Positions 25,595 to 37,999 of a DNA stretch of 64,000 nt are shown in pieces. This stretch comes from Idiomarinaceae bacterium. GTDB taxonomy: Bacteria; Pseudomonadota; Gammaproteobacteria; Enterobacterales; Alteromonadaceae. Location of the stretch: NCBI GenBank assembly GCA_002685255.1, contig NYWU01000003.1:113116-177115 (forward strand). The letters run 5' to 3'. Position numbers and translations under genes: made by a program. The notes beneath the pieces were generated by a model that made no database searches, was not told the DNA's origin, and saw only the letters and a list, made by a program, of their open reading frames with translations. Positions within the stretch are counted from its first letter, which is position 1; every line of letters begins with the position of its first letter.

Positions 25595-25804
25595 GGGAAC
25601 CCTATTATTTTGCTTAATTCTCAACGAGTAGTATTTCAGAGACCAATAAAAGTAGCTAGCCGTTATTTCAGCATCACATAGCCCAACAATTGAGTTTGAT
25701 ATGTTCTATTTACATTAATGCCAAAGCGTTTATCGCGACTCATGTCGACAAAAAATACAAAACACTACATAATGCTACACTTTGTATATACTCAGGAAAA
25801 TGTA

Positions 25805-26011
25805 ATGGGCATCGTAAAAATATCTGATGAGCTTCACCAGGAAGTTCGCAAAACAAGTTCTGTTATGGAGCGCTCGATAAACGCGCAGGCTGAATTTTGG
25901 ATGAAAATAGGACGATTAGCAGAGCAAAACCCTACCTTGAGTTTTGACGAAATTATCGACCGCCAAATGCGAGCGAACAATTTAACCTCAGAGGTATTAG
26001 CCAGTGACTAG
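25805..26011 (+). CDS. ParD-like protein
   Basis: A 68-residue protein matching the ParD-like family: MGIVKISDELHQEVRKTSSVMERSINAQAEFWMKIGRLAEQ forms a ribbon-helix-helix-like N-terminus (shown here in parts only), then a helical tail. An AGGA ribosome site eight bases before ATG 25805 sets the start; an in-frame upstream ATG would add a nonhomologous leader. It overlaps the second gene, a methionyl aminopeptidase, by eight bases if that gene uses GTG 26004. The pairing recurs in gammaproteobacteria. No RelE/ParE toxin is next to it, so it may regulate map rather than act as an antitoxin. Confidence 0.75.
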   Translation: MGIVKISDELHQEVRKTSSVMERSINAQAEFWMKIGRLAEQNPTLSFDEIIDRQMRANNLTSEVLASD

Positions 26012-26801
26012 CATGATAAAAACAGCCGACGAAATTAGATTGATGCGCGAATCGGGTCAGTTATTGGCGAGCGTTTTTCATGAATTAGATAACTATATAG
26101 AGGCAGGTCTGTCTACTCTCGATATCAACAACTTTGTTGAACATTTTATTGTGGACAGCTTAAAGGCTCGACCGGCCAGTAAAGGACAGTATGGCTACCA
26201 ATTTGTTCTTAACAGCTCCATCAATGAAGTCGTGTGTCACGGTGTCCCATCAAACGCTAAGAGACTAAAAAACGGTGATATCGTCAATATCGATATTACA
26301 CTCGAAAAGAATGGTTATATCGCTGATAGCAGTAAAATGTTCACCATCGGAGACGTATCTACGATAGCGAAACGATTAGTCGATGCAACATACGATGCTA
26401 TGTGGCGAGGCATAGAGACTGTAAAACCAGGCGCGACAACAGGTGATATCGGATTCGCTATTCAACAATACGCGCAAAAACAGGGCTTCAGTGTAGTTCG
26501 GGAGTACTGTGGCCACGGTATTGGTAAAGAGATGCATGAAGAGCCACAAATTCTCCATTTTGGTAAACCCGGCGATGGGCTCGAGCTTAGAGCGGGTATG
26601 ATCTTCACGATAGAGCCAATGATTAATCAAGGGTCTCATAAAACTAAGCTCAAGAAAGATGGCTGGACAGTCGTCACTCGGGACAAAAAATTATCCGCAC
26701 AGTGGGAACATACCGTGCTAGTGACATCGTCAGGCTTTGAGGTGCTTACCTTACGCCAAAATGAGAAGCTACCGCACGCTAATCAACGTAACGAAAATTA
26801 G
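26004..26801 (+). CDS. map: Type I methionyl aminopeptidase (accessory copy)
   Basis: A 265-residue enzyme that removes the initiator methionine. All five metal ligands are in place, at the same numbers as in E. coli MetAP: Asp97, Asp108, His171, Glu204 and Glu235, plus the substrate His79 (VCHGVPSN). The start is either GTG 26004, overlapping the ParD-like stop, or ATG 26013 right after it. A GAGG ribosome site at 25991 favours GTG. As it is not beside rpsB, it is likely a second MetAP of the genome, controlled together with the ParD-like protein. Confidence 0.88.
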   Translation: MTSMIKTADEIRLMRESGQLLASVFHELDNYIEAGLSTLDINNFVEHFIVDSLKARPASKGQYGYQFVLNSSINEVVCHGVPSNAKRLKNGDIVNIDITLEKNGYIADSSKMFTIGDVSTIAKRLVDATYDAMWRGIETVKPGATTGDIGFAIQQYAQKQGFSVVREYCGHGIGKEMHEEPQILHFGKPGDGLELRAGMIFTIEPMINQGSHKTKLKKDGWTVVTRDKKLSAQWEHTVLVTSSGFEVLTLRQNEKLPHANQRNEN

Positions 26802-32216: not shown

Positions 32217-32242
32217 TGGTGGAGCTGGCGGGAGTTGAACCC
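32217..32242. repeat. attL copy of tmRNA 3' end
   Basis: These 26 bases (starting TGGTGGAGCTGG, ending GTTGAACCC) are identical to 37640-37665 in ssrA. The bases beyond differ (ATAAATT here, GCGTCC in ssrA). This is the displaced end produced by site-specific integration. Confidence 0.92.
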
Positions 32243-32273: not shown

Positions 32274-32294
32274 GTTTTACATGACATGTAAAAC
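32274..32294. promoter_or_regulatory. 21-bp palindrome upstream of cargo genes
   Basis: GTTTTACATG (32274-32283), one central A, then its complement CATGTAAAAC (32285-32294). It lies 32 bp inside the element and 46 bp before the cargo start. It could be an operator for the cargo or an integrase/Xis arm site. Confidence 0.55.
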
Positions 32295-32340
32295 TGTGTA
32301 AATATCATTCTACATCCAATCATTATATAAGGTATATAAT

Positions 32341-33213
32341 ATGCCGAGAGAAGTAAACCAAGACTTCGACATTAGTATACATTACTCTGGTGAGATTACC
32401 GATAGTCATAAACTAGGTTTGAGAACATATGCAAATACCCTCAAACACTTTTCAGCGGCTGTAGATCGGGCTATTTTAAGCGAATCTCGAGGAAATATTC
32501 ATAAATTTGCGCGAATAACTCACGATGAAAGAGAAGATCTAGAGTTTACAGTCCTAGATCCTGAAGATGGCGGGATTATTCTTAAGTTCTTATCATCGAG
32601 AAATAATCAATTAGCACGAAGAGTAGCCGAGAGAATGGCTAACTATATTAAAGAAGCCTATAACCAAGAACCCCAGGCATCAATAACGCCAAAACAAATT
32701 AGAGAGAAAATAGCAGACTTACAGCAGCAAGAGGAGATCGAGGCAAACGCTCCCCCTGAAGCAGACAATGATTTTGCAAAGAAGGCTATTTGTAGAGAAG
32801 TAAATTCTATATTATCCGAAATTCGAACAGAAGCAGCAGGTCAGAGCTGGCTTGAGTTTGAACTAAAAACCCCTGAACCAGGAAGGGTAGAACGTTTTCA
32901 TTTCGACAGAGCTAAAGCGGAGAGGTTCAACCAGGTTGTTATGAGACGAAATATAGTTGGCCCGTATAGATATACTATAAGGGTAAGAGGACTTGATTTA
33001 GTAAATGAGAAGAAGCCCTACGCAAAATGTTTAGACGTCACTAGCGGGATTTCCAGAACCGTCTACTTTAAAGATGAGGAAGACTTGCAAAAACTTCGGG
33101 ATTATCTTTCAGGAGATGATGCGGTAATGGTGTCTGTGATTGGATTTTCAATAACGGAATTTGGTGTAGTGGACAACTTAGCCGGTGATATTCACTTCAT
33201 CGACGTAGCATAA
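32341..33213 (+). CDS. Cargo protein 1, unknown soluble protein
   Basis: A 290-residue protein of no family I can name. It begins VNQDFDISIHYSGEITDSHKLGLRTYANTLKHFSAAVDRAI, an alpha-beta start, has a Glu/Gln-rich helix at about 118-140 (KQIREKIADLQQQEEIEAN) and a beta-rich end (YTIRVRGLDLVNEKKPYAKCLDV...IHFIDVA). There is no signal peptide or membrane helix. AAGG eight bases before ATG 32341 is the ribosome site. Its stop overlaps the start of the membrane protein (TAATG), so the two are translated together. In the cargo slot of an integrative element, a phage-defence role is a reasonable guess only. Confidence 0.7.
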   Translation: MPREVNQDFDISIHYSGEITDSHKLGLRTYANTLKHFSAAVDRAILSESRGNIHKFARITHDEREDLEFTVLDPEDGGIILKFLSSRNNQLARRVAERMANYIKEAYNQEPQASITPKQIREKIADLQQQEEIEANAPPEADNDFAKKAICREVNSILSEIRTEAAGQSWLEFELKTPEPGRVERFHFDRAKAERFNQVVMRRNIVGPYRYTIRVRGLDLVNEKKPYAKCLDVTSGISRTVYFKDEEDLQKLRDYLSGDDAVMVSVIGFSITEFGVVDNLAGDIHFIDVA

Positions 33214-33872
33214 TGTTTGATACGGTTGAATTATCTAAGTTTAATCGGTTTACAAAAGTAGCCATAAATATTTCATCATGGCTACTGTTTTTTGTTGCTG
33301 TCAGTAATATTTTTGGGAAGGCACAAGAGCAGTATGGGTATTTAGATCCTATAAAGTTTCTTTCTTCATCAAAGCTATCTTACATTTTTAATTTAGATAA
33401 CTCTTTAAACACTAACCTATCCACTGTTGCTCTAATTTTACTATCACTATTTATTTGCTGGGCTATCAAGCTAGTTTTTATCAAGGCTATTCTCTGGGAA
33501 ATCAGAGATGCGCACCTTAAAAAAGAGGGAGTAGTTAATCCCTCGTTATCTAATAACCCATCAAAAAATCAATTGAAACAAAGCTTTTTTAGATCGACTT
33601 TTCTTTACCACTTCACTGGGTTGCTTTCAAATATAATTTTAGCATCGACAATATATATATTTACTTCGAACTTAGCAGATGCTTACGTGTTGTTATCAGA
33701 TTGGCTAGTTTTGTTGGGCATTCTATTCGTAATATTCTGCATACAACTCCCTGCTGCAAGGTCTATATTGACTACCTCAGTATTAGTTTTGGAATCGAGA
33801 AATGATCCTATTTCTAAAGATAATCTAAAAGTAGCTTATAAAACAATAATCGAGGAAATATACAGGCTTTAA
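33213..33872 (+). CDS. Cargo protein 2, four-helix membrane protein
   Basis: A 219-residue inner-membrane protein with about four helices: 18-40 (VAINISSWLLFFVAVSNIFG), 68-95 (STVALILLSLFICWAIKLVF), 130-155 (FTGLLSNIILASTIYIF) and 160-185 (WLVLLGILFVIFCIQLPAA). Between helices 2 and 3 lies a basic cytoplasmic loop (KKEGVVNPSLSNNPSKNQLKQ). No enzyme motif is seen. Its ATG overlaps the stop of cargo protein 1 by one base. A soluble sensor followed by a small membrane effector is the plan of several two-gene defence systems, but nothing here proves that function. Confidence 0.7.
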   Translation: MFDTVELSKFNRFTKVAINISSWLLFFVAVSNIFGKAQEQYGYLDPIKFLSSSKLSYIFNLDNSLNTNLSTVALILLSLFICWAIKLVFIKAILWEIRDAHLKKEGVVNPSLSNNPSKNQLKQSFFRSTFLYHFTGLLSNIILASTIYIFTSNLADAYVLLSDWLVLLGILFVIFCIQLPAARSILTTSVLVLESRNDPISKDNLKVAYKTIIEEIYRL

Positions 33873-33966: not shown

Positions 33967-35064
33967 TTATTTTATCCATCGCCCATAGTGCTTATTGAGC
34001 ATTTCTAAATTTCTATGGCCTAGTTGTTTGGCTACCCAAATTGCTGGCATCGATTCAAATGACAGCATAGTAGAAGCATATGTATGCCTGCAAGAGTATG
34101 GCTTTAAATATCTCACGCCTGACATTCTAACAGCTTTAACCCAAAACCTTTCTCTAGGTACTCCTTCATCTTTCCAACGCTTTAAAGTTCTAGGATCAAG
34201 GAATACATATTCTTCATCAGGATCAGGTAAACTACTCTTTTCGGCTTTAATCCTGCTTAAGACTTCTGAAGCATTAGGGTGAAGTTCGTGAGTTCGTCTG
34301 CTACCAACCGTTTTCGTTCCTGCAACTTTACCTTTTACTATAGATTCGCAAATAAAAATGGTTTTACGATTTAAGTCTACATTCTTCCACCTTAATCCAA
34401 TTTGTTCACCAGTACGCAACCCCGTCCAAAATGCGAATTCATAAAAGTCCCTTGCGTAACCCTCTGGCAACGCAGACAGTATTTTTTCACGTTCTTCAGG
34501 TGTAAACGGCTGAACTTCCTCTGTTTGGTGTTTTAAGCGTTTTACCCGCTTCATGGGGTTTTGGTCAATAATATCGTCGTAAACCAAAAAGTCGAACCCC
34601 TGACTCAACAGCGAGTGAACCTCATTGACAGTCTTCGCGCTAATCGTTGCTGTTCGTTGCCACTCTCTAAATGTCGAGGGCGTGAAGTCATTTACAATGA
34701 TTTTTCCAAAATTTGGGATAACGTGGTTATCCATCCGGCCTCGATTGGCTTTCTCAGTACTGAACGCCCAATGTCTGTAACTTTGTTCATACCAACGAGT
34801 CATCATTTGCTCAATGCTCATGTGAGCCGCTTTGTTGTCACTGAGCTGAAAAGCCTGCTTCGACTCTGGAAACTCTTTTACGTAGTCGAACTCACCGAAT
34901 TGGATCATGATTTTGACCCGCTCCAACTTCTGATGGATACGCTTCAAGTTGTCCGATGTTGGCTTAACACGTAACGTTTCTCGGCAACGCTGATGACGAT
35001 ACATAAATTCCATACGTACCGCATTTTTGCCAGCGTAAATACCTTTATATTGAGTCTTTTCCAT
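33967..35064 (-). CDS. int: Tyrosine-recombinase integrase
   Basis: A 365-residue phage-type integrase. An N-terminal arm-binding domain (residues 1-75) and a SAM-like core-binding domain (80-165) precede the catalytic domain with Arg217 (TGLRTGE), Lys251 (GTKTVGSRRTHELHP), Arg326-His327 (PYSCRHTYAS, with Tyr in the usual first His position, as in many phage integrases), His350 (LGHRNLEM) and the nucleophile Tyr360 (HYGRW). It catalyses insertion into ssrA. It is adjacent to the AlpA-like gene on the same strand, a typical int-xis order. Confidence 0.93.
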   Translation of the reverse strand: MEKTQYKGIYAGKNAVRMEFMYRHQRCRETLRVKPTSDNLKRIHQKLERVKIMIQFGEFDYVKEFPESKQAFQLSDNKAAHMSIEQMMTRWYEQSYRHWAFSTEKANRGRMDNHVIPNFGKIIVNDFTPSTFREWQRTATISAKTVNEVHSLLSQGFDFLVYDDIIDQNPMKRVKRLKHQTEEVQPFTPEEREKILSALPEGYARDFYEFAFWTGLRTGEQIGLRWKNVDLNRKTIFICESIVKGKVAGTKTVGSRRTHELHPNASEVLSRIKAEKSSLPDPDEEYVFLDPRTLKRWKDEGVPRERFWVKAVRMSGVRYLKPYSCRHTYASTMLSFESMPAIWVAKQLGHRNLEMLNKHYGRWIK

Positions 35065-35072
35065 AACGAATT

Positions 35073-35255
35073 TTAACCGTTAGTTTCTATCCAACGTTCG
35101 TAAGCTTCAAGGTTAATAAAGTAGCGACCATTCACCTTTTTATATTCTCGTGAAAGCATCCAACGCCCTTTTTGAATGAGCGCATAAACAGCTTTTTGAG
35201 TAAATCCAGTTAGCTCACAGAAATGACCGAGTAATACCCACCGTGGTTGATTCAT
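35073..35255 (-). CDS. AlpA/excisionase-like DNA-binding protein
   Basis: A 60-residue winged-helix protein: WVLLGHFCELTGFTQKAVYALIQKGRWMLSREYKKVNGRYFINLEAYERWIETNG, shown in parts, is the MerR/AlpA-like fold with a helix-turn-helix then a basic wing. It lies between int and the 119-codon gene, overlapping the latter by four bases. It should act as the directionality factor (Xis) or the transcriptional switch of the element. Confidence 0.75.
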   Translation of the reverse strand: MNQPRWVLLGHFCELTGFTQKAVYALIQKGRWMLSREYKKVNGRYFINLEAYERWIETNG

Positions 35256-35596
35256 GATTGAGTTTCCTCCTCATCCAGCTCAGCCTTCCGCTCAACTTTG
35301 TGACGACCCATCACGATATCCCAATACTTACCAATCACTTTAGATGCTCTGTAACCCACATTTCGTGTACTGAGCTCTGTTTCCTCTGGACAGATTTCCT
35401 CATAAGACAAGCCGATAGCTTTTTCATATTTCTTCATCGTATTAGAGCTATGAACCATTCTAAGTACACGCCAGCCATACCGCTGACCAATAACGATAGC
35501 CCCAATAGCCGTTTCGATTGTGCTCACATGCCCTTTAAATTCAGCTATTGAACTCTGTAAGCGAGCGTTTTGTTCATCCGTCAAAAAGTCGAACAT
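35252..35596 (-). CDS. Hypothetical element protein
   Basis: A 114-residue protein of unknown family, largely helical (DEQNARLQSSIAEFKGHVSTIETAIGAIVIGQRYGWRVLRM) with a C-terminal acidic tail ELDEEETQS. ATG 35596 is preferred to a GTG five codons earlier. An array of TAACCT repeats lies directly upstream. It overlaps the AlpA-like gene by four bases. It could be the element's repressor or a replication accessory, but that is a guess. Confidence 0.6.
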   Translation of the reverse strand: MFDFLTDEQNARLQSSIAEFKGHVSTIETAIGAIVIGQRYGWRVLRMVHSSNTMKKYEKAIGLSYEEICPEETELSTRNVGYRASKVIGKYWDIVMGRHKVERKAELDEEETQS

Positions 35597-35602
35597 AATA
35601 GT

Positions 35603-35652
35603 TAACCTCACATTTTATTTAACCTGAAATTAACTATATAACCTCAAATTAA
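35603..35652. repeat. TAACCT repeat array upstream of element gene
   Basis: Three copies of a TAACCT-type repeat at 35603, 35620 and 35639. Two of them share 14 bases with one mismatch (TAACCTGAAATTAA and TAACCTCAAATTAA). They lie immediately before the gene at 35596 and after the 83-codon gene. Spacing is 17 and 19 bp. They probably bind a regulator or initiator of the element. Confidence 0.6.
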
Positions 35653-35681: not shown

Positions 35682-35933
35682 CTACTCTGGAATGTGCTCT
35701 TCTACGTAAGAACCACCTAGCTCTCGACGTGTAAATTGACGTAAACCATCGTGAAACTTGACGACAACTTCAATTTCGTCGTTCATCGCCAATACACCTA
35801 CTATTAATCCAATGTCCTCAAACTTAGGTTGTTCGATACCTGCACGATGGATCGCCATGTGTATCAGTGAGGTTGCTTCTTCTAAGTCAAATTCTAGTTT
35901 TTGAGTATCGTTTAAAACTGGTTTTTGCTTCAT
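35682..35933 (-). CDS. Hypothetical element protein (83 aa)
   Basis: An 83-residue protein with no recognised family. It starts MKQKPVLNDTQKLEFDLEEATSL and ends FTRRELGGSYVEEHIPE, with a mixed helix-strand profile and a hydrophobic core IGLIVGVLAMNDEIEVVVKF. It lies between rep and the 35596 gene on the same strand and is probably in the rep operon. A small replication or control protein is plausible; no evidence for more. Confidence 0.55.
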   Translation of the reverse strand: MKQKPVLNDTQKLEFDLEEATSLIHMAIHRAGIEQPKFEDIGLIVGVLAMNDEIEVVVKFHDGLRQFTRRELGGSYVEEHIPE

Positions 35934-37464: not shown

Positions 37465-37523
37465 TCACCAAAATGCTCACCAAAGTTGTCACCCCGTTGG
37501 CAAAAGTTGGCATCAGGTTGGCA
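37465..37523. repeat. Iteron-like repeats upstream of rep
   Basis: Three TCACC repeats at 37465, 37477 and 37489 (exactly 12 bp apart) are followed by three TTGGCA repeats at 37497, 37507 and 37518 (10 and 11 bp apart, about one helical turn). They lie between rep and the tmRNA end. They look like initiator- or repressor-binding iterons and may mark the origin. Confidence 0.65.
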
Positions 37524-37639: not shown

Positions 37640-37665
37640 TGGTGGAGCTGGCGGGAGTTGAACCC
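37640..37665. repeat. attR (26-bp core in ssrA)
   Basis: The 26 bases shared with 32217-32242. They are the last bases of ssrA, from the T-arm to the CCA end, so the integrated element restores a full-length tmRNA. Confidence 0.92.
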
Positions 37666-37999
37666 GCGTCCGCAATACCTACATCCTCGGTCCTACATGC
37701 TTATTCAGTCTTTTTATTAACCAGCATGACGCCGACTGACAGGCTTCAACTACTGGCGAGTCCGATTAAGTTTAACGCTTCAGCTCCGGACAAAGCATCC
37801 ACGCGAGTCTACCTTAGGTCGAGCCATCCTGATCCAGTCTCGTAGACAAAGCGCTGGGGGACGGGCTTAGCGGGTTATTAAGCCGCTAGAGCGTAGTTGT
37901 CGTCGTTTGCAACTATAACGTTGAGGCTTTTTACGAGGCCAGCCTCACCTCGGCATGCACCTTGGGTTTCGTGTATCCCGTCGAATCCAGATCAGCCCC
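37640..37999 (-). ncRNA. ssrA: tmRNA
   Basis: A 360-base one-piece tmRNA on the minus strand. The 5' end reads GGGGCTGATCTGGATTCGAC, the acceptor/D-arm start of tmRNAs. The tag ORF (37910-37878) encodes ANDDNYALAA then TAA. The 3' end has the T-arm GGGTTCAACTCCCGCC and ends in CTCCACCA. It rescues stalled ribosomes with SmpB; arfB in this window is a backup. The last 26 bases are the attachment site used by the element, and a -10 box lies at 38012-38017. Confidence 0.97.

Follow-up and report, generated by a model that had tools for sequence, protein, structure and literature searches.

A stop/start-coupled gene pair in a small ssrA-inserted element of an Idiomarinaceae bacterium is a candidate two-protein anti-phage module

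The stretch of DNA analysed here, hereafter called the window, is 64,000 nucleotides long and comes from an Idiomarinaceae bacterium. It contains a 5.4-kb element that is inserted in ssrA, the tmRNA gene, and is bounded by perfect 26-bp direct repeats. Two genes, A and B, form the cargo of this element and lie on the plus strand, opposite to its five backbone genes on the minus strand. The features are as follows.

32217..32242, no strand: distal copy of the att repeat, 26 bp, a copy of the ssrA 3′ end and a perfect direct repeat with 37640-37665
32274..32294, no strand: perfect 10-bp inverted repeat with a 1-base centre, a candidate operator upstream of A
32281..32308, plus strand: highest-scoring promoter-like site ahead of A (10 of 12), a consensus match only
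32341..33213, plus strand: gene A, a soluble 290-aa protein matching PHROG 28486, with predicted N-terminal alpha/beta, helical middle and OB-like C-terminal parts
33213..33872, plus strand: gene B, a small membrane protein of 219 aa, the start of which shares 1 base with the stop of A
33967..35064, minus strand: tyrosine integrase (PF00589, E 8.8e-19; PF12167, E 7.1e-16)
35073..35255, minus strand: excisionase/AlpA-like small protein (phrog_539 excisionase, E 1.5e-11; PADLOC mad1, E 1.4e-4)
35252..35611, minus strand: 119-aa backbone protein without a family match; its counterpart in the sister element L070 (see below) starts later (114 aa)
35682..35933, minus strand: 83-aa backbone protein without a family match under E 0.05; the same protein is present in L070
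35955..37436, minus strand: P2 gpA-type replication endonuclease (PF05840 Phage_GPA, E 8.2e-60; phrog_91, E 8.5e-125)
37640..37665, no strand: att repeat copy within the tmRNA gene end, paired with 32217-32242
37640..37999, minus strand: tmRNA gene (ssrA), the integration site (ARAGORN)

The integrase, the position at ssrA and the flanking repeats of the ssrA 3′ end identify the element as a tmRNA integrative island. The P4-type primase, delta and psu genes that define a P4-like satellite are absent from its five backbone genes. Two tandem 21-bp repeats that are 81% alike (37482-37523) lie in the gap from the replication gene to the att site and are possibly binding sites for the integrase or the Rep protein.

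Genes A and B meet in the motif TAATG, where the ORF coordinates and the sequence place the stop codon of A and the start codon of B with one base in common. Their GC contents are 40.3% and 32.4%, respectively, as compared to 47.1% for the window. Both observations bear out an earlier sequence-only reading of this DNA, which had described an AT-rich two-gene cargo with a one-base overlap. Upstream of A, the final base of the inverted repeat is located 46 bases before the ATG, and the repeat covers the first hexamer of the promoter-like site. Such an inverted repeat turned up in 5 of 3000 versions of the 98-base interval shuffled by single bases, and the whole window has 11. The region scanned holds seven promoter-like sites, against 7.1 expected. 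Since the inverted repeat was spotted post hoc and the number of promoter-like sites is at the chance level, the two features are only suggestive. On the minus strand, four terminator-like sites lie within A and B (32417-33544) versus 1.2 expected, and they could stop transcription entering from the other genes of the element. Elsewhere in the window (25718-26801), a small ORF overlaps a methionine-aminopeptidase-like ORF, an arrangement that we take to resemble a known antitoxin-like/MetAP gene pair.

Does the pair occupy an exchangeable position? Matches to the window integrase at E 0.001 or better are present in 16 of the 19 genomes of the genus, and only the integrase of one congener, G1299, is close to it (85% identical); the other matches are 40% identical or less. 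The sister element in G1299, L070, has the same backbone order, lies at ssrA and has 29-bp repeats. In its slot, which extends from the integrase to the far repeat, a single gene encoding a 312-aa protein (L070:8639-9577) replaces A-B. The earlier claim of a variable slot in an integrative element is thus supported by this one comparison. The 312-aa protein has two hydrophobic N-terminal segments and no PADLOC match, and it is a further candidate defence gene of the slot. We considered it as a form of B and dropped this idea at an hhalign probability of 0.2%. Directly after the sister element, L070:9818-13224 encodes an integrase that by eye is of the P4 type, together with an AAA-ATPase that matches PADLOC AriA (E 8.9e-26), and islands therefore seem to be stacked in tandem at ssrA. 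The gpA-type replication gene is of a widespread type, with matches in 44 of the 147 family genomes sampled, the best other being 43% identical; G1299, with its near-identical replication gene, is not among the genomes listed in this sample.

How widespread are the relatives of A? With the genome of the window counted, they occur in two of 394 genomes of the order when searched by sequence, in two of 369 genomes of the class by the PHROG profile (and in none of 14 controls), in three of 398 genomes of the phylum by a seven-row profile, and in one of the 19 genomes of the genus. Searches of the orders to which two known carriers belong gave 2 of 54 and 2 of 174 genomes, those carriers included. 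The search of genome contigs yielded three loci, and the scans of IMG/VR with A or A profiles yielded four different contigs in all. When the pair of one of these, L009, was used as a DNA query, 25 of 5426 E. coli genomes matched, 24 of them covering 80% or more of the query.

The pair is therefore rare and scattered. By our own grouping there are twelve carriers of A, namely the window, E. coli, L009, Buttiauxella, Lonsdalea, Marinospirillum (L010), two types of P2-like prophage and four further genomes (G465, G1053, G1104 and G1222), and not all of them are independent cases: the copies in L009, E. coli and Buttiauxella are close to one another, as are Marinospirillum and G1104, and also L019 and G1222. 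Aligned with eight other A proteins, the window A has 19-31% identity to them. A tblastn search with the window A found nothing in phages and plasmids. The Buttiauxella A gave 4 and 11 records in phages and plasmids at E about 3, which we took as chance, while the L019 A found nothing in phages and the L010 A nothing in plasmids. Neither the window A nor the window B, each searched alone, found anything in IMG/VR. The window B and the L009 B found nothing in phages, and in 295 genomes of the order the window B was present in its own genome only.

In all twelve carriers, a gene for a small membrane protein is located directly 3′ of A on the same strand. The sequence-only reading had named a failure of the two genes to co-occur in other genomes, or homologues with housekeeping or replication roles, as evidence that would speak against it. 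The former is contradicted by these twelve pairs, in one of which B is truncated, and none of the latter was seen. Ten of the twelve A/B junctions share one base and two are separated by two bases, with the overlap in L010 possibly amounting to four bases. The B proteins are 209-224 aa long, apart from the truncated 97-aa B of Lonsdalea. Among the 11 full-length B proteins, the hydrophobic segments over the threshold number four in six, three in three and two in two, and the window B belongs to those with three (residues 16-34, 72-90 and 159-177).

No sequence homology between the window B and the other B proteins could be detected. Against a B-family profile of nine relatives, it ranks 42nd among the 412 ORFs of the window and 101st among 502 sequences (500 shuffles, the real B and the reversed B), and the hhalign probability of its relation to the B family is 0.4%. 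It has the same length as the family, and its membrane segments are at similar places. Among the relatives B diverges faster than A (between L010 and L009, A is 44% and B 22% identical), and this divergence alone could account for the dissimilarity of the window B. Alternatively, the window B may have been replaced by another membrane protein. In the window, A is thus supported by homologues, and B by its place, size and coupling, without sequence homologues.

Either gene can be damaged while its partner is intact. In two E. coli copies A is broken and B is intact, and in another E. coli copy and in Lonsdalea B is truncated and A is intact. Sequencing errors or silent copies could account for some of these single-gene losses. 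The losses on both sides suggest that neither A nor B is lethal alone, as in a conditional system.

Next, we compared the two proteins with known families. Neither has a match above the cut-off in Pfam, NCBIfam or PADLOC, and neither is matched by the PADLOC (2023) models at E up to 1. For four relatives each of A and B, the sole PADLOC match at E up to 0.1 is that of one A to PtuB (E 0.013). No named system in the 2023 PADLOC set, Pfam or NCBIfam covers A or B. The window A matches PHROG 28486 over residues 11-290 (E 1.6e-43), as do all nine A rows scanned, including that of the window. All nine scanned relatives of B match PHROG 31922, a set outside which the B proteins of G465 and Lonsdalea stand, and the window B does not match it at E up to 1. 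Both PHROGs are without an assigned function in the database. The impression that the pair belongs to no known family accordingly holds in these libraries, with the functionless PHROG 28486 as the home of A.

The A rows also have weaker likenesses, to LAPAL_fam (NF053583) in eight of nine (E up to 1, best 6e-5), to DUF7946 (PF25678) in five of nine (E up to 0.5, best 7.4e-5) and to phrog_3243 in six of nine (E up to 0.1, best 2.3e-5). In the window A the LAPAL match (residues 11-47) and the phrog_3243 match (residues 7-47) are N-terminal. The window A scores 15 bits, whereas the LAPAL model requires 60, and thus lies outside NF053583, and it is likewise unmatched by DUF7946 at E up to 0.5. Across 56 genomes NF053583 gave two weak matches, neither over the cut-off, and one of 14 controls exceeded it. 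The libraries give no tested function for DUF7946, LAPAL_fam or phrog_3243, and we found no literature on LAPAL or on DUF7946/DUF7947. No catalytic motif was recognised in the pair, and sequence searches for relatives among the solved structures yielded nothing convincing (best E 0.23 and 0.34).

The structure prediction proposed along with the sequence-only reading provided models of A and of the L009 B. The AlphaFold model of A has a mean pLDDT of 67.7 and a pTM of 0.64. In this model, the order of the C-terminal strands (three strands, a helix and two strands) fits an OB fold, which in many proteins serves to bind nucleic acid or nucleotides. Foldseek found no PDB entry matching A at E 0.001 or below. 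Its best matches, with low TM-scores, are eIF5A and the OB-type regions of LysRS, and these agree with an OB-like C-terminal part of A. In BFVD, three viral proteins match the model of A over most of its length (E 7.7e-9 to 3.4e-8, TM-scores 0.34 to 0.53); two of them are uncharacterised, and one is labelled DUF6575 (E 2e-8, TM-score 0.41). The fold that A may share with this phage protein is no more than a lead. A DUF6575 domain is reported in a validated defence system (PMC9519451), and the PF20215 profile had no match in 61 genomes and 14 controls. The model of the L009 B (pLDDT 75.4, pTM 0.67) consists of four long, potentially membrane-spanning helices, and all of its PDB matches have E above 1. 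The description of B as a four-helix protein therefore suits the L009 model and the six relatives with four segments, but not the window B with its three.

Where does the pair reside in the other carriers? Of the 25 E. coli regions, six were inspected. Five of these have the pair, or a damaged version of it, in the psu-int interval of a P4-like satellite integrated at ssrA, and the sixth is a remnant. From the similarity to genes annotated in E. coli, we judge L009 to be another P4-like satellite and the Buttiauxella copy to be a satellite remnant. The psu-int interval of P4-like satellites is an experimentally established reservoir and hotspot of defence genes (PMC9122126). As only seven of the 19 hotspot gene sets cloned in that study (that of P4 itself and 18 others) were protective, the position by itself is no proof of defence.

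In two different P2-like prophages, the pair is located between gpA-type and portal-type genes (phage genes named by eye). This gap is presumably the tin region of P2. SLATT_4 and PDC-S31 genes lie beside the pair in one of the prophages. Directly after A-B in a P2-like prophage, L023:7550-8596 encodes a protein of 348 aa that carries a bacterial SH3 domain at its C-terminus and has no PADLOC match. In G465, the pair is embedded in an array (L007:2300-6794) where a 103-nt repeat occurs four times, with one more partial copy. We take this array to consist of integron cassettes, and a PDC-S42 gene (PADLOC E 3.8e-120) lies about 150 bases upstream of the pair. We also considered this PDC-S42 protein as a cousin of A and dropped the idea (hhalign probability 0.1%). 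In G1222, a TIR-TM gene (PADLOC E 7.9e-10), whose Pfam TIR_2 match is below the cut-off, lies about 100 bases upstream of the pair. In G1053, a NERD+UvrD gene (PADLOC E 1.7e-165) lies 11 bases upstream. In G1104, an OLD gene (PADLOC E 2.7e-60) lies about 4.5 kb away, with a DUF2971 gene near. Ten neighbouring genes picked by eye as defence-like were scanned, and seven have a PADLOC match while three have none. In total, nine of the eleven carriers other than the window have the pair in a known hotspot position or near a gene with a PADLOC match (P4 slot, three; P2-type slot, two; PADLOC-positive neighbour, four). In Lonsdalea and Marinospirillum, no defence context was seen by eye. Homologous pairs, the search for which had been suggested at the outset, are thus found in other mobile elements, namely P4-like satellites, P2-like prophages and a cassette-like array.

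The gene order, the stop/start coupling, the cargo position and the recurrence in defence contexts are established here. With these in hand we infer a role in phage defence, in which A would sense infection and B would act on the membrane. Specifically, we propose that A-B is an anti-phage module, in which A serves as the sensor or relay and B as the membrane effector of an abortive infection, and assign this reading a probability of roughly 0.6. The contexts and the recurrence of the pair partly support the possible new phage-defence system that the sequence-only reading had envisaged; the window B is not demonstrably homologous to the other B proteins.

In the proposed mechanism, A and B are probably produced from one transcript by coupled translation in matched amounts. 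A would be a cytosolic sensor or switch, with an OB-like C-terminal part, that detects or relays the infection. B would be a small helical effector of the inner membrane that damages or depolarises the membrane once A has detected the infection. The membrane damage would then stop phage production, resulting in abortive infection. We further entertain, as a tentative idea, that A is a reusable sensor of mobile elements, composed of a DUF7946/LAPAL-like N-terminal part and an OB-like barrel, whose translation is coupled to that of exchangeable or fast-changing membrane effectors; in the window, the sensor would have been retained and the effector replaced or altered past recognition.

Could the pair instead exclude superinfecting phages? 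In that case, B in the inner membrane would keep the DNA of related phages from entering the cell, A would be its partner or its regulator, and no cell death would be needed. B is indeed a small membrane protein, and the carriers include satellites and P2-like prophages, which gain from shutting out competitors. However, the TIR, NERD-UvrD and OLD neighbourhoods are without phage genes (by eye) and fit general defence better, and an obligate soluble partner of 290 aa is unusual for exclusion proteins. We therefore consider exclusion unlikely, although it is the strongest of the alternatives. A toxin-antitoxin or addiction module, in which one product is toxic, the other neutralises it and the element is thereby stabilised, is less probable still. 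A exceeds the size of typical antitoxins, which are smaller, and natural copies exist with A broken or with B truncated, either one singly. In its favour, the two genes are small, coupled and carried on mobile elements, and gop and beta of P4, in the same slot, are likely such a pair (PMC9122126). Least probable is an accessory cargo that serves the element or the host in another way, for example in helper-phage interaction, DNA packaging or transport. A is weakly like the NCBIfam family LAPAL, named a putative phage structural protein, but misses its cut-off by far, and the pair also occurs within a cassette-like array and at chromosomal loci without phage genes (by eye).

If the anti-phage reading is true, A-B is an uncharacterised two-protein module that recurs across Gammaproteobacteria in satellites, in prophages and in a cassette-like array, and the small gpA-replicating element at ssrA is a carrier of defence genes. 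The pair is directly testable in E. coli, because natural copies are present in its P4-like satellites. Within the main texts of the literature we found no published test of the pair and no paper on its E. coli accessions, and the pair was not seen in the passages of DefensePredictor (PMC13092281) that were searched. It may already stand in supplementary tables as an untested hotspot arrangement.

How does the pair compare with the known systems? The defence systems of the P4 psu-int and P2-type hotspots (Rousset 2022, PMC9122126) have the slot and the compact cassette form in common with it, and some of the systems validated there combine a soluble protein with a membrane protein (a HAD-like hydrolase with a TM protein, and an RT-nitrilase with a TM protein). 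The difference is that A and B are without the Pfam or PADLOC domains of those hotspot systems. As for the element, the IntY/AlpA islands inserted in the tmRNA gene often have defence cargo (PMC12595487) and resemble the window element in the tmRNA end, the direct repeats, the tyrosine integrase and the AlpA-like gene. The window element differs from these islands in its size of just 5.4 kb, its gpA-type replication gene and its host group. The PICMI satellites of Vibrionaceae (PMC10803314) are located at fis and have a primase, in contrast to the ssrA site and the gpA-type gene of the window element. The PICMIs are minimal like the window element, with an integrase, an AlpA-like regulator and a replication gene, and they have a slot where defence genes occur.
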